From assembly GCA_018402085.1 (NCBI GenBank), contig JAGYJM010000001.1, positions 154,562 to 218,561 on the forward strand: a DNA stretch of 64,000 nt, given 5' to 3'. The position numbers and the translations under genes are program-made. The DNA comes from Flavobacteriales bacterium. Its GTDB lineage: Bacteria > Bacteroidota > Bacteroidia > Flavobacteriales_D > Sanyastnellaceae. Within the stretch, counting starts at the first letter, position 1. Each line of letters opens with the position of its first letter. Below are positions 4,588 through 23,740 of this stretch, one piece after another. The notes below the pieces were generated by a model, which had not been told where the DNA came from, ran no database searches, and was given only the letters and a program-made list of their open reading frames with translations.

Positions 4588-5466
4588 ATGCAGATTGCTG
4601 TTTTTGGTAAACGCTTTGATCCCTCTTATGATCGCTCCATTGCTTTTTTGTTGAATGAGCTCATTGACAGAGGATATGATCTCATTTTTGACGAAGACCT
4701 GGTGCGATTTCTTAAAAAGCGAGAGCTCTTTCCACCGCATAAACACGAGGTTTTCCCGGCAGGTGAGCCGCTTGCGGGTGTTGATCTACTGATTTCTATA
4801 GGGGGTGATGGTACCCTCCTGGATACCCTGACCATTGTTCGCGACTCAGGTATTCCAGTGCTGGGAGTGAATACGGGTCGACTTGGGTTTCTTTCAAATA
4901 TTGCCTGCGACAAAATCGGCGACGCCCTTGACGCTTTCGAAAATGAAGCATATACCATCGATGAAAGGTCATTGATTCATGTGGATGTAAAAGATGTACT
5001 GAACGGTGCTTTCCCCTACGCACTTAATGAGGTTACCATCCATAAAAAAGATGACGCTTCAATGGTGACGGTGAACGCGGCCATGGATGGCATCTTCATC
5101 AACAAGTACTGGGCTGACGGCTTGATCGTTTCAACTCCTACCGGGTCTACCGCATATTCACTCAGTTGTGGCGGGCCAATCGTAATGCCGGGTTCGAAGA
5201 ACCTGATACTGACACCGATTGCCCCTCACAACCTGAATGTGCGCCCGCTGGTGGTGCCAAACGATTCAACCATTCGTTTGTCGGCCTCAGGAAGAGCGCC
5301 CGGCTATTTACTGACCATTGACTCACAGTCTTTTGAGCTGCCCCCTGACCATGAGGTAGCACTGCGCACAGCACCATTCACCATGCGCCTGGTGAACCTG
5401 GAAGGGCAACACTTCTTTCAGACCATACGCAACAAGATGCTCTGGGGGCTTGATAAGCGGAATTAA
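4588..5466 (+). CDS. nadK: NAD kinase
   Basis: 292 aa. Phosphorylates NAD+ to NADP+ in the cytosol. Family motifs are intact: GGDGT at 72-76 (ATP and metal binding), the LNEV segment near residue 150, and the glycine-rich TPTGSTAYSLSCGGPI segment near residue 185 that contacts NAD. Length is normal for bacterial NadK. The start is fixed by a promoter box 4 nt upstream. Only 49 bp separate its stop from the preferred start of the following barrel gene. Confidence 0.97.
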   Translation: MQIAVFGKRFDPSYDRSIAFLLNELIDRGYDLIFDEDLVRFLKKRELFPPHKHEVFPAGEPLAGVDLLISIGGDGTLLDTLTIVRDSGIPVLGVNTGRLGFLSNIACDKIGDALDAFENEAYTIDERSLIHVDVKDVLNGAFPYALNEVTIHKKDDASMVTVNAAMDGIFINKYWADGLIVSTPTGSTAYSLSCGGPIVMPGSKNLILTPIAPHNLNVRPLVVPNDSTIRLSASGRAPGYLLTIDSQSFELPPDHEVALRTAPFTMRLVNLEGQHFFQTIRNKMLWGLDKRN

Positions 5467-14003: not shown

Positions 14004-15509
14004 TCAGGGGGTTTGCTTGCTAGAGTGAGGTACCTTGAATGAAGAAATCACTGCGTTTTCTTCATCGATAAGGGTCAGTTCAACGTAGTTGTTGCCCTCA
14101 ATATGCACCTTGCCAAAAGCGTTTCGCTCCTCTTTGTGGGTGATGCCGGTACCTCCCTTGTTCCAGAGGTCCTTCTTTACGCGAAATGAAAAGGTCAGTT
14201 TGCCGATAAGGTCAACGTATTTCCAAAGCGTATTGTCTGAGCGTCTTACGCTCAGACCACTGGCGTTCATTTCGGGTAAACCTGAATTGGTACCATCATC
14301 CATCGCACTGTTATGTGTATCACCGCTTATGACGATCACATCCTTGATTTGTTCTTCTTCAAGCCAGTCGTAAAACGCATTCATTTCATGCGGATAGCCC
14401 GCCCAATAGCCGCTGATCGCGTAGGCCAGGTGAAAGGCACTGTAGCCTTTCGCCGTGCGACGCTGCCACTTAAGTCCGGTATCAATCAACTTGCCAAGAC
14501 TGCGGTTCAGCGGTACACCGCTTACAATGAATTTCCAATCTGCTTCTGAGTTTTTAAGCCCTTCTTTCAGCCACTCCATCTGGGTTTCACAGAACATGCA
14601 GTGATCTTCAGGAGGATCGAACTCCCATCGCCCTCGTTTATTGCGCTTGAAGGCGTAGGAGTACGGGTATGGACGAGATGAATTGCGGTCGAGTACAAAG
14701 ATCTCCGCATTTCCGACCACAAAAGAGTGATGCGTTGCCTCGGCGGTATCCGGCAAGGGGTAGTGCGGAAAATAGTCGTCATACCCACGAATCACATTCC
14801 GCAGCCAGAAAGAAGGAAAGGTATCTGCCAGTAGTATGGCATCAGCACCAAACCATCCGGTCTTTTCAGACCGAAAGCTATTCTTGCAATACCTGCCACT
14901 GCTGCTTCCTACGTGATCATTGTCGTCAAACACATAATCAATCGGAATGCTGCACAGCATCTCTTTCATTCGATTCTCATTGTAGCGCCGCCGGTATGAA
15001 AAGGCCACCAGCGAGTCGAATGCAGAATAGTCAGGTCTGATCTGATAGTCAGGGTAGGTGTAGTCTCCCGTATGCATGAAAAAGAGCGGATCATGAGACG
15101 GAATCACATCAAAAACCTTCATGTTCGCGGTTTCTTGACATGAGCCGGTGACAAAGCTGAATGGTTCACGGCTGCCGGGTTCAGGAAAGGTGGTAAAGCT
15201 GCCGCTGACCTTTTCTTTGCTCACAGATGATTCAATATTGAAGGCATACCGCGTGGAAGGGTGAAGTCCGTACGCCTCAAAAGTGCCGAAGCCAAAGGGA
15301 TCTGAAATCAGCAAGCCCTGCTCTTGTATGGATTTACCGCTTTTAGTTTTCAGCAGGAGACGTAGGGTGTCAGCACCGGAGGTTTGCACAGTAATAGACG
15401 CTGAATGTGCGGTAACGGCACCGGTGACGGGGCCGCTCAAGAACCATTGCGCCTGGTGGGTGAACGCCAGAAGCAAAGCGGCAGTTGTAAGTAGTGATTT
15501 CGGGATCAA
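14004..15509 (-). CDS. PhoD-like alkaline phosphatase/phosphodiesterase, third gene of a phosphonate-type operon
   Basis: 501 aa, signal peptide ending THQAQ. An Ig-like N-terminal domain (about 22-115) precedes a metallophosphoesterase core: SCQETANM, MHTGDYTYPDY, VFDDNDHVG, VSGVPLNRS and VISGDTHNSAMDDG carry the Asp/His/Asn metal ligands of the PhoD class. Periplasmic or surface enzyme that releases phosphate from esters; specificity unknown. Its ATG overlaps the TonB receptor stop by 4 bp, so uptake and hydrolysis are co-expressed. It is more distant from the two PhoD-like proteins at 18.6-21.4 kb than those are from each other. Confidence 0.88.
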   Translation of the reverse strand: MIPKSLLTTAALLLAFTHQAQWFLSGPVTGAVTAHSASITVQTSGADTLRLLLKTKSGKSIQEQGLLISDPFGFGTFEAYGLHPSTRYAFNIESSVSKEKVSGSFTTFPEPGSREPFSFVTGSCQETANMKVFDVIPSHDPLFFMHTGDYTYPDYQIRPDYSAFDSLVAFSYRRRYNENRMKEMLCSIPIDYVFDDNDHVGSSSGRYCKNSFRSEKTGWFGADAILLADTFPSFWLRNVIRGYDDYFPHYPLPDTAEATHHSFVVGNAEIFVLDRNSSRPYPYSYAFKRNKRGRWEFDPPEDHCMFCETQMEWLKEGLKNSEADWKFIVSGVPLNRSLGKLIDTGLKWQRRTAKGYSAFHLAYAISGYWAGYPHEMNAFYDWLEEEQIKDVIVISGDTHNSAMDDGTNSGLPEMNASGLSVRRSDNTLWKYVDLIGKLTFSFRVKKDLWNKGGTGITHKEERNAFGKVHIEGNNYVELTLIDEENAVISSFKVPHSSKQTP

Positions 15510-18010
15510 AAAGTGTAGCGCATTTGAAAGGTGAAATTAAGGGGCGCTTCGAATTTAGCCGGACGCAGCGCGTAGATTCTGTTGGTGACGTTTTTCACAA
15601 TCAGCGAATATCGGAAACGTTCAGAAGCTTCGTAAGCGACACGTGTTCCGAGAATGAAATCACCTCGTTGGTGTTCTTCAACGTACTCAAACAGACTGAC
15701 ACCGGCTTCCTGCGCGTTTTGAACACTCTGATCGATGGGCTGTGTGAGCAATGTAAGGTCTTCAGCGATATCAATGCTGCCTTCTAGCACGCCGAACATA
15801 ATGTAGTAAAGTGCGGGTATACGCTCCGGGAAGCTCACATACTGCGCGGTGAAACCAATAGAGAATTTCCGGTAATTGAACTCGATATCGCCGGTAGCGA
15901 GGTGTCGCGGACGAATCTGCAGGAGCATATTTGTTTGATCATCCGGCACGCGTTGGAACATATAGGTGAAGAAGTTATCGAAGAAAGTGCCCAGGTTTTG
16001 GTTGTCAGGATTTCCGGGCTGTATTTCGGGTTCAGTGACGATCTCTTCATTCTCGTCACTATTCAGGTTGGCCGGGAAATTATAGGTGTATCCCATTAAG
16101 GTTCGCACCTCTACCTCTCCTATCATGCCTTTACCGGCCAGGGTCACTTCATATCCGGCGATGCGCGCCGCTTCTACGTTGAACGGACGTAAGCCGGTAC
16201 CCAACGGATCCTGCAGTCCTTCTACAATCGGTTCAACACCGGGATATTGGTCGCCTGTGAATGGGTCAATGATCGAGTGCACCCCGAGGCGGTATTCGAT
16301 CATATTCTCGGTGAACTCCTGCCAGAAGAAGGCAAAATCGGCATAACCGGTCCAGTTGCCAATCCGAATACCCTGCTTCACCCCCACCTCAGCATTCCAT
16401 GAGCGCTCGGTGAGCAAATTGCGGTTCGGAAAGATGAACACTCCGTCAATCAGGTCACCTGTGACGCGTGTTTCTGCGATAGAGGGCACCCTGAACCCTT
16501 GTCCCCACGAGCCGCGCAGGTAAGTCGCCTTGCCTGAGCGGTAATTCAAACCAGACCTGAACACCGGGAAATCTGCATTGATACCGCCGTCTTGTCTGAC
16601 AGTTTCGTACCGCATACCTCCTACGAGTGAGAGGCGGTTGGTTTTCATTTCTGCCTGGGCGTATCCTGCATAACTGATGCTGCCTATCCAGCCGGCATTT
16701 TCGAAGAGGTTGCTCTGATTCACGGTGAATTCCAGTGGCATTCCGACCGTTGTTCTGATGACTACACGGTCGCGTTGCCACGAATACTGGTGCTGAGGGT
16801 GGAGGTTAAAGCCGTTTTCAGAGCTGTTGATGTCATCGCCAACTCCCTGTCGCCATTTATTGAAGTACTGTGATTGCACGTTCCAACGGTGGCCTTTGGG
16901 ACTATTGTACGTCAGAAATGGAGAAACCGCGGTGCGAAAGTAATTGTCTTCAGAGGTGAACGCTGATCGCCAGGCATCGTCGCCCATACCTTCGCTGATA
17001 ATAAAGCGGTCGCTGCTTTCCCACATCAGGTTCATACCGGTGCCGTAAACCAGGCCTTCCACCCTTGCAGAGCGCACACGTACCTTGCCGTTGGCGCGTA
17101 TCCGTGATTCATTGGCGCTCTCGAGGTAGCTGTTGATGTTGTCGATGTGGCCGCCACCGACAAAAGAGACATTTTTACCGAACTTCTGCTTGTGGTTGAT
17201 GAACATTCCGGAGAAGTTAGGCTGTTCGCCCTCCCACCAGATGAGGTTTTTGTTGGTTGGATCAGCGAATAAGCCGTAGTAGGTGGTCACAGAGGTTTCC
17301 GGAACGGTATCTGTAGGCCATGCCGTGCGGATATTGACCACTCCGTTCAGGGCTGACGATCCGTAAACTACTGAAGACGCGCCTTTGATAACCTCTATCT
17401 GCTCTACGTTTTCGAGAGGCGCAAACTTGAGGTCTGCTGACTGAAAAGCCCCGGTTTGCAGCGTATTGCCGTCAACCAGTACAGCCGTTCGAGAACCTAC
17501 TCCGTAGCTGTAAGAGCTCCCGCCGCGAATGCTGATTTGCTCATCAATGACCTGAACGCCGGGAGTTTTTGCTACCCCTTCGCCGAGGTCTCTGACATTG
17601 CTGTTCTCCAGCAGTTGCTCGTCGAGTACATTGACGGAAACCGTTTCTTCGGCAATGTTTTTCTCGAATTGGCTGGCGCTGATGACGACCTGGTCTATAC
17701 TGATGCCGTCTGCTTTGAGGCCTATGGTGAGCTCTTTACGCACAGCAGGTGCTATTTGCACCTCAACCGTATCGCGCTTATAGCCGACGAAAGAGACCAC
17801 GAAACGGTAGGTGCCTTTGGGTAGCTTCAGGGTGAATTCACCGTCAAAATTGCTTGCCGTACCACGTTTGAGATCCGGTTCAAACAGCGTGGCGCCGATC
17901 AGCGGCTGACCGGTGGTGGCGTCAAGTATCCTTCCGCTGAGAGTGCCGTCTTGTGCAGTGACTGCCAGTGCGAAAAGAAAGAACACTGACAGCGTAATAA
18001 GCCGTTTCAT
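15506..18010 (-). CDS. TonB-dependent outer-membrane receptor with carboxypeptidase-regulatory-like N-terminus
   Basis: 834 aa. Signal peptide to VTAQ; then a CarboxypepD_reg-like domain (about 22-105, GTLSGRILDATTGQPLIGATL), a plug (about 115-230, with IDQVVISASQFEKN and the IEVIKGASSVVYGSSALNGVVNI signature) and a 22-strand barrel ending in LNFTFQMRYTF with a terminal aromatic. Imports a large or scarce ligand using TonB energy. It is sandwiched by 4-bp overlaps between a PhnZ-like oxygenase and a PhoD-like phosphatase, so a phosphonate, phosphoester or metal ligand is the best guess. No SusD partner is present. Confidence 0.93.
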   Translation of the reverse strand: MKRLITLSVFFLFALAVTAQDGTLSGRILDATTGQPLIGATLFEPDLKRGTASNFDGEFTLKLPKGTYRFVVSFVGYKRDTVEVQIAPAVRKELTIGLKADGISIDQVVISASQFEKNIAEETVSVNVLDEQLLENSNVRDLGEGVAKTPGVQVIDEQISIRGGSSYSYGVGSRTAVLVDGNTLQTGAFQSADLKFAPLENVEQIEVIKGASSVVYGSSALNGVVNIRTAWPTDTVPETSVTTYYGLFADPTNKNLIWWEGEQPNFSGMFINHKQKFGKNVSFVGGGHIDNINSYLESANESRIRANGKVRVRSARVEGLVYGTGMNLMWESSDRFIISEGMGDDAWRSAFTSEDNYFRTAVSPFLTYNSPKGHRWNVQSQYFNKWRQGVGDDINSSENGFNLHPQHQYSWQRDRVVIRTTVGMPLEFTVNQSNLFENAGWIGSISYAGYAQAEMKTNRLSLVGGMRYETVRQDGGINADFPVFRSGLNYRSGKATYLRGSWGQGFRVPSIAETRVTGDLIDGVFIFPNRNLLTERSWNAEVGVKQGIRIGNWTGYADFAFFWQEFTENMIEYRLGVHSIIDPFTGDQYPGVEPIVEGLQDPLGTGLRPFNVEAARIAGYEVTLAGKGMIGEVEVRTLMGYTYNFPANLNSDENEEIVTEPEIQPGNPDNQNLGTFFDNFFTYMFQRVPDDQTNMLLQIRPRHLATGDIEFNYRKFSIGFTAQYVSFPERIPALYYIMFGVLEGSIDIAEDLTLLTQPIDQSVQNAQEAGVSLFEYVEEHQRGDFILGTRVAYEASERFRYSLIVKNVTNRIYALRPAKFEAPLNFTFQMRYTF

Positions 18011-18555
18011 GCGATGTGGTCGAAATAATTGAGAAAGTGGGATATTTCGGGAGTCTCCATATAAGGATCTTTAGCGGTGTCATCAATGACCCGCAAGGCA
18101 ATGGCCTCGCGATGGTGAGGGTTTTGCTCGAATTGTAAGAGTTCCGATTCGTTCATAACGCCCCCCTGATCAAGGAAGCTTTTGTACGAAGTGGGGGAGA
18201 GTACGTTCAGGTAATTACGGTCAGTTGTGCAGAGGTAGCGTTTTGCTGATACATGCAAGCGCACCGGCTCAGCGATTTGATCACCGAGATTTTTCTTAAG
18301 CCACTGGTAAGCGCGCTCTTCATGTTGGTCGTGCAGGTTTTCTTCGGTGCTTTCAGGCAGCTTCACCGCTGCATCCATGATGTGGCCAATGTCATGAAGC
18401 AGGCAGGCCACAATGAGTGGGGAGGTGTATCCCCGTTGTTCTGCGAGTGTGGCACTCTGAAGAGCATGCTGCAGTTGGGTGACCTGCTCATCGGCATATT
18501 GCAGCGAGCCCTTAGCGTCAAAGATATGCAGGATCTGGTGCTTAAATTCAGTCAT
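18007..18555 (-). CDS. HD-domain mixed-valent di-iron oxygenase, PhnZ-like
   Basis: 182 aa, cytosolic. Resembles PhnZ, which cleaves the C-P bond of 2-amino-1-hydroxyethylphosphonate to glycine and phosphate, and the related TmpB. All key positions known to me from PhnZ have counterparts: Tyr20 and Glu23 (lid), His30, His54-Asp55 and His58 (LLHDIGH), His78, His101 and Lys105 (LHVSAKRYL), Asp158. The VLSPTSYKSFLDQGG segment is also family-typical. PhnZ normally follows the 2-oxoglutarate enzyme PhnY, which is absent from the window, so the hydroxylated substrate is either imported or made elsewhere. First gene of the operon; its stop overlaps the TonB receptor start. Confidence 0.85.
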   Translation of the reverse strand: MTEFKHQILHIFDAKGSLQYADEQVTQLQHALQSATLAEQRGYTSPLIVACLLHDIGHIMDAAVKLPESTEENLHDQHEERAYQWLKKNLGDQIAEPVRLHVSAKRYLCTTDRNYLNVLSPTSYKSFLDQGGVMNESELLQFEQNPHHREAIALRVIDDTAKDPYMETPEISHFLNYFDHIA

Positions 18556-18570: not shown

Positions 18571-20253
18571 TTAGTCATGGAAGAACAACATGCTGTTGCG
18601 TACAGGTCTTCGGTTGTCGAGGTTGTAGAGGTTCAGGTGCAGGGTTTCTCCGGCGTAATCTTCGAAATACTCGATGGTAACGGGGTGCATTCCTTCACGA
18701 AGTCCGATCTCAATCTCAACAGTGCGTGCACTGTGCGAATCGTCGTTATCAAGCACGAGGTCTTCACCGAGGTACAAACGTGCGCCGTCATCTGAGGTGA
18801 TTGAAAGTAGGTAGGTTGCGGTCTCTTTGATGCGCAGGTATCCGTTGAAACGAATGGCATAGTGATCTTCGCGTTTGCGAATATCCAGCACATCAAGGTC
18901 GGTGCTGACACCTTCACCGAGCACCTCTTCGTCTTCAAAATCAGGCAGTTTCTTGAACTTACCCTCCACATATTGGTAGGTTAAGCCATTGCGGAGTTCA
19001 CCGGTCTCGATCGCATCCCGCGCTTCTGCGCGGTTTAACGAATGCTCAAACACCCGACTTCGGGGAGTACCTTCTGAGGTGAAGAGCTGCGCTTTGATCA
19101 CGGAAGGTTCAGCCGTGTAAAACGCCAGCGGACGCGCAGGTAGGTTCGCGGATGGCGCATTTCCATCAAGGGTGTAGCGCAGTTGAAGGTCAGGGTAGCG
19201 ATGGTTGAGGCGCACCATCGCTCGATCGGTAATCAAGGTCTGACGTGGCATTTCAATGGTGGTCTCGAGTTCACTGAAATTCACTCGGTACTGCACTTCG
19301 AGGGCATCCGTTTCTGCGTTACGTATGGTGTAGAGTATATGTGCGGCTTGCTCATCGCTGTCTTCAAACTGCACATCAATGCTGGCATAGCTGTGTTTTG
19401 AACGGCAAACGTCACTCACGCGATAGGATGAAAACTCAGGTGACTCGATTTGATTCAGTCCGGCAAACTGCAGCTCAACCGCATCAAAGTCGAGGGCGCC
19501 GGGCATGCGCAGCACCTCGCCATAATGCTGGTCACCGGTCAGGAAAAGGGTATGCTCTGCGCCCGTACTGCGAATGAGATCGAACAACCGTTCACGCTCG
19601 GTAGGATATTGCGCCCAGGTTTCAGAGCCGCGATCGGCCTCGAGCAGAACCTGAGATCCTGAAACGATAAAGCGGAGCTCAGCGGGTTTGCGCAGCTCTT
19701 CTTCAAGCCACTGCCATTGCGCTTCCCCCAGCATGTCACCATAGGTGAAAGGGTCATCGCGATGGTAACGCACATCAAGTAACAGAAACTGAACCGTGTG
19801 TCCTTCATGCTCAAGGTACTCGGCGTGGTACACTCCCTCGCGGTCAGCCAGCGCCTCCTCGAGCTCCCAGAACTCAGCGAAAATCGCCTTACTTTCAGCC
19901 TTTCTTATATACGCTTTCCCGGCGTTATTCTGTCCGTAGTCATGATCATCCCACGTGGCAAAATGCCGCCCTTTGCGACGTACTTTATCATAGTACGGCT
20001 GCGCTGCGAGCTCTGCGTAATCTTGGCGAATCTCTTCAGGGTCATCGGTGTCTGAGTACACATTGTCGCCCAGCCACACGTACACATCGGCATCCATTTC
20101 TGCATATTTTTCAAAAGCCGGAACGGGCTCTTCATGCCTGATACAGCCCAGCATACCGATGGTCAGGGTTTCGTCTTGTGCAACTCCAAAGGTTGCCGAA
20201 AGTAGTGCAATAAGCACCATGCTAAATGGCGCCAGGGGAGTGGCTAAGGACAT
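18571..20253 (-). CDS. PhoD-like metallophosphatase with C-terminal hexosaminidase-type and PA14 domains
   Basis: 560 aa from the ATG at 20253, where a normal signal peptide (to FGVAQ) begins; an upstream in-frame ATG (20310) would add a hydrophilic leader. Phosphatase core, residues about 25-310: GCIRHEEPVP, WLGDNVYSDT, TWDDHDYGQNNAG, VSGSQVLLE, LTGDQHYGEVLR. A short chitobiase/hexosaminidase C-terminal-like beta domain (about 330-400) and a PA14 domain (about 430-550, YLLSITSDDGARLYLG) follow and suggest carbohydrate or surface binding. The residues NRAEARDAIE between them are encoded by a palindromic element. Ends 16 bp before the PhnZ-like gene, on the same strand. Confidence 0.88.
   Translation of the reverse strand: MSLATPLAPFSMVLIALLSATFGVAQDETLTIGMLGCIRHEEPVPAFEKYAEMDADVYVWLGDNVYSDTDDPEEIRQDYAELAAQPYYDKVRRKGRHFATWDDHDYGQNNAGKAYIRKAESKAIFAEFWELEEALADREGVYHAEYLEHEGHTVQFLLLDVRYHRDDPFTYGDMLGEAQWQWLEEELRKPAELRFIVSGSQVLLEADRGSETWAQYPTERERLFDLIRSTGAEHTLFLTGDQHYGEVLRMPGALDFDAVELQFAGLNQIESPEFSSYRVSDVCRSKHSYASIDVQFEDSDEQAAHILYTIRNAETDALEVQYRVNFSELETTIEMPRQTLITDRAMVRLNHRYPDLQLRYTLDGNAPSANLPARPLAFYTAEPSVIKAQLFTSEGTPRSRVFEHSLNRAEARDAIETGELRNGLTYQYVEGKFKKLPDFEDEEVLGEGVSTDLDVLDIRKREDHYAIRFNGYLRIKETATYLLSITSDDGARLYLGEDLVLDNDDSHSARTVEIEIGLREGMHPVTIEYFEDYAGETLHLNLYNLDNRRPVRNSMLFFHD
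19013..19033 (-). repeat. Palindromic GATG element inside a coding region (encodes RAEARDA)
   Basis: Sense strand: stem CCGCGC / GCGCGG, loop AGAA, then GATGC. Sits in the linker between the hexosaminidase-like and PA14 domains of the PhoD-like protein, in the same orientation and frame as the other coding copies. Confidence 0.85.
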
Positions 20254-20273
20254 TTGATTGTAGTTGTGGTCAA

Positions 20274-20281
20274 CGAAAGTA
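20274..20281 (-). promoter_or_regulatory. -7 promoter box for the PhoD-PA14 gene
   Basis: The minus strand reads TACTTTCG, 20 nt before the ATG at 20253. It supports that start over the one at 20310, which would be upstream of the promoter. Confidence 0.5.
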
Positions 20282-20390
20282 CGGACTTCAGTCGCTAAAA
20301 AAGTTAACAAATAGTTACCTCATGCGGGTTCACTTGCAGGTGAAGACTGAAGCGATGTTAATTCGTCTTATCTAACTTCAAATTTAAAGT

Positions 20391-21387: not shown

Positions 21388-22059
21388 ATGCTTCGCCACC
21401 TGAGTCTATGCCTGGTATTCATGTTCGCTGCGACAAGCTTCGCATCAGCACAACCTGCCGAGTTCGGTGTGCAGGCGGGCTCCGGGTGGAACATTTTACG
21501 CAACCGAGGGGGCGCATTCTTTCATGAACCCTTGGTGATGACCGGCATTGGTTTTGGCAGCCTGGGAGCTTATGCGAGAATTCCGCTTAAAGACTCTTTT
21601 GTCTTGCGTTCTGAACTTCACTTGAACTACCGCTCTATCGCGGGTCTGCTGGTGCTGAGTGTGGATGAAGAAGAAGAGGAGGTGCAGCTCGGACTCGAGA
21701 AAAGCGGGGTGAAAGACCTGTTCATCGAATTGCCCCTGCTCGTAGAGTATCGGATCAACAAAGAGATTAGCACCATTGCCGGAATTTCGCTGAATGGCCT
21801 GCTGTATTCAGAGAAGGAACAGCTACCGACCGACAGTCTCACGTCGGTGGCGCCCGTGCTCACCGGAGCTGTAGCCCTGGAGAACCGCAACCGTCTTGAG
21901 TTGGCTTACATCATTGGCGGACAGTTCACATTCTCGGAGCACTGGGGCATGGGCTTTCGCTTTATGCGCTCGCTGACCAATTTCTACCGGGCCGCATCGT
22001 ACCGCAGCTTTTCGTTGCGCTATGCCACGTGGTCATTGAATGGCACTTATCGGTTCTGA
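21388..22059 (+). CDS. Outer-membrane beta-barrel protein (OMP_b-brl type), first of three tandem
   Basis: 223 aa. Signal peptide to ASAQ. Mature part has the pattern FGVQAGSGWN, a central FIELPLLVEYRI strand and a final YATWSLNGTYRF strand with terminal Phe, as in PorT-like barrels of Bacteroidota. No enzymatic feature. Shares strand layout with the next two genes. Starts 22 bp after the PhoD-like gene but has its own promoter box. Confidence 0.8.
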   Translation: MLRHLSLCLVFMFAATSFASAQPAEFGVQAGSGWNILRNRGGAFFHEPLVMTGIGFGSLGAYARIPLKDSFVLRSELHLNYRSIAGLLVLSVDEEEEEVQLGLEKSGVKDLFIELPLLVEYRINKEISTIAGISLNGLLYSEKEQLPTDSLTSVAPVLTGAVALENRNRLELAYIIGGQFTFSEHWGMGFRFMRSLTNFYRAASYRSFSLRYATWSLNGTYRF

Positions 22060-22174
22060 CATTCCGATTACTCTTTCAAATCTACCTGCGGCTCATTCTG
22101 AGCGCGTAGTACTGCGACTCATCTGCAACTTGCCCGCAGAATTAACCCTTTCAAGTTTTCTAAAGCGATTGAAT

Positions 22175-22873
22175 ATGATGAGGAATGTAGCTTTAACAGG
22201 TATCCTGACGCTTTTTTTAAGTGTGACGGCATCAGCACAGCTGACTTACGGGCCTATGCTCGGTCTGGGGGCGAATGTCATTTCGGTAAACGCGAATCCC
22301 GAGCCCGCAGGGTTTGACGCAGAAAATTCTTCGGGTTTCGGATTCTTTGTGGGCGGTTTCGCCGCCTATGACCTGGGTGACGGCCTCTTTGCCCGACCTG
22401 AGTTGCACCTGGCCATCCGCCGCTTTTCAGATAAAGAGGACATTACGGAAACAGACACCGATTTCTTTGGGAATACCGTTCAGACGCGGATCGAAAGCGA
22501 CTTTACTTCACGGGATACCTTTCTTGAGATACCATTGTTGATGGGGTACGAGTTTTCTGAGGGTTTGTCGGTGCTGGCAGGACCGTCGGTAGGGCTTTTG
22601 CTTGGCAGCCGGATGAAAGGCGAGCAAACGATCACGATCGATGGAGATTCATATACCGACAGCATTGACGACAGCGGAACCACAGGCCGGAGAGGAGCTG
22701 AACTCGGTCTTGCGCTCGGCCTGCACTACGAGCTGCCGATGGGCTTGAGTGTAGGAGTACGCTATACCCGTGCGTTGACTAATATCCTTGAAAACAATGA
22801 ATTTGGTGGTATCAAAACTCGTCAGAACTACAACCTGATCAGGGTAAATTTCTCTTACCTGCTCGATCTCTGA
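22175..22873 (+). CDS. Outer-membrane beta-barrel protein, second of three tandem
   Basis: 232 aa from ATG 22175 (or 22178), where the signal peptide MMRNVALTGIL...ASAQ starts; the frame opens 45 codons earlier but that part reads as non-coding. Mature strands: YGPMLGLGANV, FLEIPLLMGYEF, LSVLAGPSVGLLLG, VGVRYTRALTNI, LIRVNFSYLLDL. Same OMP_b-brl architecture as its neighbours. Followed by a terminator. Confidence 0.85.
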   Translation: MMRNVALTGILTLFLSVTASAQLTYGPMLGLGANVISVNANPEPAGFDAENSSGFGFFVGGFAAYDLGDGLFARPELHLAIRRFSDKEDITETDTDFFGNTVQTRIESDFTSRDTFLEIPLLMGYEFSEGLSVLAGPSVGLLLGSRMKGEQTITIDGDSYTDSIDDSGTTGRRGAELGLALGLHYELPMGLSVGVRYTRALTNILENNEFGGIKTRQNYNLIRVNFSYLLDL

Positions 22874-22895
22874 GAACAGTACGGATCGAATTGAG

Positions 22896-22926
22896 AGAGG
22901 CCGTCTGTTCTGCAGGCGGCCTCTTT
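22896..22926 (+). terminator. Intrinsic terminator after the second barrel gene
   Basis: 8-bp GC-rich stem AGAGGCCG / CGGCCTCT with a 13-nt loop and TTTA tail, 22 nt after the stop codon. Confidence 0.8.
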
Positions 22927-23032
22927 ACATTCAAGGGGGTGAAACGGTATTGAATAACTGACTAATGTCAGACTGGTGAATTAACGTCTTTAAATGTTGC
23001 ATCTTACGGATGCAGAAATAGAATGAATTGTT

Positions 23033-23740
23033 TTGATACGCCTGTTCCTCCTCTCTGTGTTCTTCTTGATGGTGAATTCTCTGTTTGCGCAGTCAGTTTC
23101 TTTTGGGGTTGTAGCGGGTGGAGGATGGAATGAGCACCACAGGGAGTCACGCTATGACCGGCTAAGCCCTCAGGGAGTGAATTATTTTGTGGGCCTTAAC
23201 GTTCATGCTCAACCCAAAGACCGTTTCTCTGTTCGTTTGGGTATGCGACTCTCAAATCGTTATGTTTTCGATAATGACAGGTTTCTGTACCGAAGAGCTT
23301 TGTATACCTCGGGTGCGGCATATGTTACTGAATTTGAAGTCCAGAACAACATGACAATCAGAGATAGCTTCTTTGAAGTGCCTCTCAGTGGTATGGTTCG
23401 CGTTTTTAAAGGGCTTCACGTTTTCTGTGGGTTTCAGCTTTCTATAGTGATGACGTCAAATGTCACCGGAAATTACACCAGGTATTTCCCGGATGGTGCT
23501 ATTGTCGAATCACCTGCAGATGGTTGGTTTTCAGAGCCTGGTGTAGATGAGTTTGCTGTTATCGGAGGCTTGAATTATGCGTTTCCGTCGGGCATTGGCG
23601 TTGACTTGAAGTACTATTCGGCTACCTCCTACAGGTACGATAGCGAACTACCAACGAACCCTGCCTATGACTACAGTGAATTTTCGAGAATGATTCAGCT
23701 GGCGATTTCGTACCGGTTGAAAAAGAACGGTAAGCAGTAA
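23033..23740 (+). CDS. Outer-membrane beta-barrel protein, third of three tandem
   Basis: 235 aa. Apparent TTG start at 23033: the signal peptide IRLFLLSVFFLMVNSLFAQ follows at once, and no in-frame ATG or GTG precedes it after the last stop. Mature strands FGVVAGGGWNEH, SFFEVPLSGMVRV, FCGFQLSIVMTS and IQLAISYRLKKN match the family of the two preceding genes. Base composition looks more AT-rich than its neighbours. Function unknown. Confidence 0.75.
   Translation: MIRLFLLSVFFLMVNSLFAQSVSFGVVAGGGWNEHHRESRYDRLSPQGVNYFVGLNVHAQPKDRFSVRLGMRLSNRYVFDNDRFLYRRALYTSGAAYVTEFEVQNNMTIRDSFFEVPLSGMVRVFKGLHVFCGFQLSIVMTSNVTGNYTRYFPDGAIVESPADGWFSEPGVDEFAVIGGLNYAFPSGIGVDLKYYSATSYRYDSELPTNPAYDYSEFSRMIQLAISYRLKKNGKQ

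Follow-up and report, generated by a model that had tools for sequence, protein, structure and literature searches.

A candidate split-locus system for oxidative scavenging of alpha-hydroxylated phosphonates in a Flavobacteriales bacterium

A 64,000-nucleotide stretch of DNA from a Flavobacteriales bacterium (GenBank assembly GCA_018402085.1, contig JAGYJM010000001.1, positions 154,562 to 218,561 of the forward strand), here called the window, had been proposed from its letters to encode an organophosphonate acquisition operon, made up of a PhnZ-like HD-domain oxygenase, a TonB-dependent receptor and a PhoD-like phosphatase. Our follow-up analysis supports the phosphonate theme of that original prediction and changes its cast. 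We give somewhat better than an even chance to a reading in which this bacterium carries an oxidative phosphonate-scavenging system split between two loci, one in the window and one elsewhere in the genome, that would act on a phosphonate already hydroxylated at the alpha carbon. From genes, domains, residues, gene order, co-occurrence and trees we infer the activities, compartments, substrate and flow of this system, which are worded below as predictions.

The window locus (Table 1) very probably begins one gene earlier than had been recognized. The three minus-strand genes of the original prediction do overlap by 4 bp at both joints, with ATGA at 18007-18010 between the HD oxygenase and receptor genes and TTGA at 15506-15509 between the receptor and PhoD1 genes, the second overlap depending on the TTG start of PhoD1. 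Two genes had been overlooked: one for a PhoD-like protein with a C-terminal PA14 domain (PhoD-PA14), which ends 15 bp upstream of the HD gene, and one for a third PhoD-like protein (PhoD3), which diverges from it. PhoD-PA14, HD, receptor and PhoD1 very probably make up a four-gene candidate operon.

Table 1. Features of the two loci; numbers without a prefix are positions in the window
Feature	Position	Strand	Basis or remark
PhoD1, PhoD-like metallophosphoesterase	14004..15509	-	Pfam PhoD 81.3 bits; TTG start; N-terminal signal sequence by eye
TonB-dependent outer-membrane receptor, 834 aa	15506..18010	-	Pfam CarbopepD_reg_2, plug and barrel
Phn-HD diiron oxygenase candidate (PhnZ/TmpB-like), 182 aa	18007..18555	-	TIGR03276, ligands, YxxE, trees
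PhoD-PA14, PhoD-like phosphoesterase with C-terminal PA14	18571..20310	-	Pfam PhoD 55.5 bits, PA14 60.1 bits
Divergent intergenic region PhoD-PA14/PhoD3	20311..20390	.	Probable promoter region
PhoD3, third PhoD-like protein, 324 aa	20391..21365	+	Pfam PhoD 45.4 bits; BLAST; PhoD tree
DUF5690 and TIGR03366-like dehydrogenase pair	G000:C2:906842-909177 (L168:8843-11178)	convergent	Outside the window

The HD protein (Pfam HD domain, 25.7 bits) aligns with TmpB (PDB 6npa, E 1.9e-34) and PhnZ (4mlm, E 2e-20). The lid and metal-ligand positions of PhnZ that had been read from its sequence are indeed kept (Y20, E23, H30, H54, D55, H58, H78, H101 and D158), as is K105. The protein has the H..HD..H..H..D ligands and YxxE loop that characterize HD phosphonate oxygenases (PMC8177086). 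Across 104 aligned rows of the family the metal ligands are present in all 104, Y20 in 103 and E23 in 95, so that these residues mark an HD oxygenase of the family and do not tell its substrate. Clustering with non-phosphonate HD oxygenases had been named as one of two outcomes that would speak against the original prediction; the PDB sequences matching at E ≤0.001 are of the TmpB and PhnZ kinds only, and no such clustering was seen in our trees, which were built without myo-inositol oxygenase.

We compared 130 Phn-HD loci, namely that of the window, 16 from a phylum draw of 395 genomes, 80 from a scan of named genomes (the best 80 of at least 205 confirmed relatives among the matches listed), 28 from a class draw of 395 genomes (28 of 29 new places) and five others (L051-L054 and L167). 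At E ≤0.001 the phylum draw matched 32 genomes: 17 of these scored above 190 bits and were genuine, while the other 15 scored near 20 bits and were discarded. The class draw matched 48, 40 of them above 100 bits. As controls for the phylum-draw neighbourhoods (12-17 kb each) we took 20 windows, each of 17 kb, from those genomes.

In a 104-row tree the HD protein groups with those of a Pirellulaceae metagenome-assembled genome (MAG; L057) and a Verrucomicrobiota-labelled MAG (L055), with support of 100/97. PhnZ and the SusCD-linked phylum-draw proteins belong to a different clade, and TmpB too stands apart from it, so that phylogeny does not point to a particular substrate. When 40 of the 102 earlier rows were combined with the two references and 27 newly added rows in a second, 69-row tree, the HD protein grouped with L055, L057 and L229 at 100/95, with the bootstrap not settled; L229 holds its closest protein by BLAST (50.9% over 171 residues). 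A clade joining the window protein with that of a Halieaceae MAG (L105) is absent from the tree but not rejected (p-AU, the p-value of the approximately unbiased test, 0.15; 0.319 when L055 and L057 are included). Within the bacterium's own family Phn-HD was found in this genome only, 1 of 114, and a protein search of the order found it in 4 of 399 genomes; none was confirmed in viral contigs. Since 113 of the 114 family genomes lack it, and since it groups with Planctomycetota- and Verrucomicrobiota-labelled proteins, the simplest reading is that the gene came by horizontal transfer.

As originally claimed, no PhnY partner was found in the locus: nothing between positions 5001 and 30000 of the window matched the PhyH protein of the Halieaceae locus, the one reference used, which itself scores 142.6 bits against the methylphosphonate hydroxylase model NF052437 (cut-off 500). 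The bacterium's genome has no TauD-family (TmpA-type) gene, and its one PhyH-family gene stands elsewhere, beside a purK-like gene (by eye), with no NCBIfam/PhnY-model match at 1e-10. Relatives of PhnY and TmpA are therefore likely to be absent from the genome, judging by these searches, and because none was found we take the substrate to arrive already alpha-hydroxylated. In two loci from another family of the class (L235 and L236), the arrangement resembles the classical oxidative pair: a PhyH-type dioxygenase is encoded on the same strand as Phn-HD, with about 0.7 kb between the gene centres.

The partner of Phn-HD that recurs is a PhoD of the upstream kind, not the downstream PhoD1 that had been cast as the characteristic esterase. 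Members of the PhoD family are known to hydrolyse phosphate esters, and all three in the window pass the Pfam PF09423 gathering score of 27 bits. PhoD1 matches PDB entries 9uya (phmmer E 2.1e-5) and 2yeq, a PhoD (E 0.0027), while PhoD3 shares 41% identity with the PhoD portion of PhoD-PA14 across 325 aa. In 7 of the 130 loci a PhoD directly flanks Phn-HD on the same strand, no more than 159 bp away: the window, the Halieaceae MAG, the Pirellulaceae MAG, L229 (genome G947), L224 (G803), L233 (G872) and L230 (a G917 contig). These represent six lineages, L224 and L233 being of one genus, and by label three phyla (Bacteroidota, Pseudomonadota and Planctomycetota); no PhoD was found in the 20 control windows. 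Relatives of PhoD-PA14 that also carry PA14 stand beside Phn-HD in the Halieaceae MAG (38% over 558 aa, PA14 by Pfam) and in L230 (45% over 515 aa). In a 17-row PhoD tree, PhoD-PA14, PhoD3 and the PhoDs of L229, L105, L230, L224 and L233 form one clade with support of 100/100, outside which fall all nine PhoD-like proteins taken from 29 loci of family genomes without Phn-HD. A structure model of PhoD-PA14 was poor (predicted local distance difference test score, pLDDT, 57.2) and was not used. The bacterium's 3.8 Mb genome has seven PhoD-family open frames in all, three of them within 7.4 kb in the window. On an Asticcacaulis plasmid (NZ_AP029026.1, L167:7355-9007) a type I phosphodiesterase with chitobiase-C and PA14 domains lies about 12 kb from Phn-HD, a different catalytic domain with a PA14 end of the same kind as that of PhoD-PA14.

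The gene order of the window has a counterpart in the Halieaceae MAG (CAJXNM010000038.1), where DUF5690, PhoD-PA14, HD, a TonB receptor and an exported LamG metallophosphatase stand in a row; a PhnY-like PhyH gene, divergently oriented, and a gene for a regulator accompany them. The four genes that follow DUF5690 in this row have relatives in L230, at 41% (PhoD-PA14), 39% (HD), 37% (receptor) and 40% (phosphatase) identity; by BLAST the window's receptor and PhoD1 show no such relationship to their counterparts in either locus. Across the three loci the roles predicted from sequence recur though the proteins differ. L230 may be contamination of G917, given its integrase-like and regulator-like frames (by eye) and the pairing of its HD protein with the Asticcacaulis plasmid row (100/100 in the second tree). 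A LamG metallophosphatase with the domain pair of the last Halieaceae operon gene also lies about 6 kb from Phn-HD in the Verrucomicrobiota-labelled MAG, on the other strand (L055:4-1662).

The second locus is tied to the first through DUF5690. The genome has a single DUF5690 gene (529.2 bits, G000:C2:906941-908083), unlinked to the window, and the next gene, convergent with it and overlapping by 4 bp, encodes a TIGR03366-like dehydrogenase (273.9 bits, cut-off 328). The same convergent pair stands beside the HD gene of L055, and in L224 and L233 HD, PhoD, DUF5690 and dehydrogenase follow one another on a single strand, overlapping or separated by gaps of 2 bp, the dehydrogenase being 40% identical to that of our genome. 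Among the 114 family genomes DUF5690 occurs only once, in the same genome as Phn-HD. In the phylum draw, made up of the same genomes as for Phn-HD as far as these were listed, it exceeded its cut-off in 42 of 395 genomes, including all 17 with Phn-HD (hypergeometric p 9e-19; 9e-18 with our own genome excluded), and by genus in 13 of 13 with Phn-HD against 31 of 171 overall (p 2e-11), a count that removes relatedness only partly. It lies within 13 of the 16 phylum-draw neighbourhoods and in none of the 20 controls, and beside Phn-HD in four phyla by record label.

An AlphaFold2 model of the L055 copy of DUF5690 (pLDDT 81.8; predicted TM-score 0.83) has the fold of the major facilitator superfamily (MFS). 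SLC37A transporters take Foldseek ranks 1-11, and the best VIA-align match is the human glucose-6-phosphate transporter SLC37A4 (Z 33.7, root-mean-square deviation 3.2, 362 aligned), with other MFS carriers such as NorA (Z 31.5) so close behind that the model shows the fold and not the cargo. SLC37A4 exchanges sugar phosphate for phosphate. A DUF5690 sequence profile matched no PDB sequence at E up to 1, so the link to solved carriers is one of fold comparison. The DUF5690 of our genome pairs with the Halieaceae copy at 95/95 (92/84 with more rows), a grouping on long branches that we do not rely on, and the six-row dehydrogenase tree, with very long branches, carries little information.

The receptor scores 110.2 bits against the NCBIfam SusC model (cut-off 368.25) and no SusD was matched between positions 5001 and 30000 of the window, so that it does not belong to a SusC/SusD pair. 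Linkage of receptors to Phn-HD in relatives, whose lack had been named as the other outcome against the original prediction, holds for the family at large: a TonB receptor or SusC occurs in 15 of the 16 phylum-draw neighbourhoods and in 6 of the 20 controls (p 1e-4), and receptors also flank Phn-HD in the Halieaceae MAG, the Asticcacaulis plasmid and the G917 contig. No receptor was seen beside the nearest relatives L055, L057 and L229, nor in L224 and L233, in the stretches examined. This family linkage is mostly of SusCD type. Of the 16 Phn-HD clusters L031-L046, SusD is present in 13, a TIGR03364 FAD oxidoreductase in 13, a TIGR03351 phosphonatase-like HAD protein in 11, a regulator with helix-turn-helix and cupin domains in 9 and an exported phosphodiesterase in 7, and these are probable phosphonate utilization loci of SusCD type. 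The window receptor has no BLAST match to the Halieaceae receptor at 1e-4, and its type is therefore not conserved.

Assembled from these parts, the proposed system would work from the outside in. Exported PhoD-PA14 and PhoD3, the former perhaps held to a glycan or surface by its PA14 domain, would cut a glycan- or lipid-bound phosphonate ester outside the cell or in the periplasm and free an alpha-hydroxyphosphonate. Such a step fits the postulate of Sosa et al. (2017), who invoked an alkaline-phosphatase-like enzyme for polysaccharide-phosphonate esters and named PhoD homologues (PMC5649143). Passage through the outer membrane, of the ester itself or of what is cut from it, would be the task of the TonB receptor. 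The model first proposed has no inner-membrane step, for which DUF5690, with its MFS fold, is now a candidate carrier. In the cytoplasm the HD oxygenase would then split the C-P bond of the alpha-hydroxylated phosphonate with O2, giving phosphate and a carboxylic acid, as PhnZ and GmPhnZ give glycine from 2-amino-1-hydroxyethylphosphonate and formate from hydroxymethylphosphonate (PMC8177086, PMC10574752). The TIGR03366-like dehydrogenase may invert or oxidize the hydroxyl carbon, by analogy only with PbfF, or handle the product; PbfF is an NAD-dependent 2-amino-1-hydroxyethylphosphonate racemase of pfam02826, a family unrelated to that of the dehydrogenase (PMC12366243). A broader generalization is in our view less likely than not: a dedicated PhoD subfamily, with or without PA14, would free glycan or lipid phosphonates, DUF5690 would carry them inward, and the dehydrogenase, as an alpha-hydroxyphosphonate racemase or dehydrogenase, would feed the right enantiomer to Phn-HD where no PhnY is present.

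Several observations weigh against the split-locus reading. The HD protein scores 195.7 bits (E 4.6e-58) against the Phn-HD model TIGR03276, below its curated cut-off of 214.6, although in the phylum draw 10 of the 17 genomes with Phn-HD likewise fall short of it, and its 151.1 bits against the TmpB model NF049941 and 131.9 bits against the PhnZ1 model are far under the cut-offs of 300; neither score nor clade makes it a TmpB. Most Phn-HD loci (123 of 130) have no directly flanking PhoD, and BLAST comparison found none of the reference genes in the stretch examined at 59 of 102. The PhoD that lies 1.8 kb from Phn-HD in L046 falls outside the HD-linked clade, and that of the Pirellulaceae MAG is a classical PhoD (377.8 bits) not among the rows of the tree. 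No receptor accompanies the closest HD relatives L055, L057 and L229 in stretches of 16.5, 16.5 and 8.5 kb. DUF5690 occurs in 25 of 378 genomes without Phn-HD, its model is nearly as close to other MFS carriers as to SLC37A4, and the two loci of our genome are tied by co-occurrence alone.

Some of these points favour an alternative that we think unlikely, though it is the best placed of those we weighed: the system is made up only of PhoD-PA14 and HD, along with DUF5690 and the dehydrogenase, and receptor and PhoD1 are an uptake pair that joined them by chance after HD was gained. The probable transfer of HD into a family that otherwise lacks it, the missing receptor at its closest relatives and the lack of a match between the window and Halieaceae receptors all agree with such a history. 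However, a receptor and an exported metallophosphatase lie close to PhoD-PA14 and HD in L105 and L230 too, encoded by genes that do not resemble those of the window, and the 4-bp overlaps argue for coexpression. It is also improbable, in our estimation, that this is a general phosphate-scavenging locus, whose PhoDs and receptor serve to obtain phosphate from common phosphate esters and in which HD is a cheap extra activity. Three PhoDs here and seven in the genome, of a family known for phosphate ester hydrolysis, would suit such a locus. Phosphate-induced loci of receptor and phosphatase (phosphate utilization systems, PUS) are moreover established in Flavobacterium (PMC8115612). Against it stand the HD-linked PhoD clade, which excludes the nine sampled PhoDs of family genomes without HD, and the recurrence of PhoD-HD adjacency in distant genomes. 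To the exact model of the original prediction, in which the phosphonate taken up by the receptor is hydroxylated or phosphorylated and its ester is removed by the downstream PhoD1, we give little credence despite the gene order and overlaps on its side, for PhoD1 is never the best BLAST reference for any frame in the other 101 of 102 loci, the four PhoDs found in the 28 class-draw loci, where matches to the different PhoDs were pooled, are closest to PhoD-PA14, and the recurrent partner lies upstream.

As to the surroundings of the operon, the start of PhoD-PA14 is likely the ATG at 20253, which leaves a clean signal sequence (by eye). A scan for sigma-70-type promoters between PhoD-PA14 and PhoD3 gave no matches and is not informative for this bacterial group, and a search of the window with Rfam at gathering scores and for tRNAs gave none. 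After PhoD3, three consecutive plus-strand genes (21388-23740) encode proteins of 223-277 aa that look by eye like small outer-membrane barrels.

Part of marine dissolved organic phosphorus is phosphonate esterified to polysaccharide (PMC5649143), and the ester-opening postulate of Sosa et al. becomes directly testable with a PhoD subfamily whose genes accompany that of a candidate C-P cleaving oxygenase. DUF5690, for which the literature searched yielded no paper, can now be tested as a phosphonate carrier. The idea that Bacteroidota couple phosphonate use to receptors is not itself novel (Lidbury et al.); a link of PhoD or DUF5690 to Phn-HD was not found in the literature searched, whose reach left out most subscription papers. 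The locus would broaden the PUS concept known from Flavobacterium so that it takes in oxidative C-P cleavage and a receptor that has no SusD partner.

Set beside known systems, the window shares with PhnY*/PhnZ, TmpA/TmpB and GmPhnY/GmPhnZ an HD diiron oxygenase with the YxxE loop and H..HD..H..H..D ligands, and differs in that no PhnY or TmpA relative was found within the limits of the searches above, in that its HD protein lies outside the PhnZ and TmpB clades, and in the esterases and receptor that its operon adds. With the phosphate-induced PUS of Flavobacterium (PMC8115612) it has TonB-linked outer-membrane import and exported phosphatases in common, whereas the window lacks the SusCD-like pair of PUS and has Phn-HD-type C-P cleavage and PhoD-PA14. 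The clusters L031-L046 likewise combine Phn-HD with DUF5690 (13 of 16) and outer-membrane import (15 of 16), but their HD proteins belong to another clade, a PhoD occurs only in L046, and TIGR03364 and TIGR03351 proteins are found rather than TIGR03366. The Halieaceae locus has the window's order of PhoD-PA14, Phn-HD, TonB receptor and exported phosphatase, with DUF5690 at its head; unlike the window it has a PhnY-like PhyH protein, and its receptor and last phosphatase differ from those of the window in BLAST.

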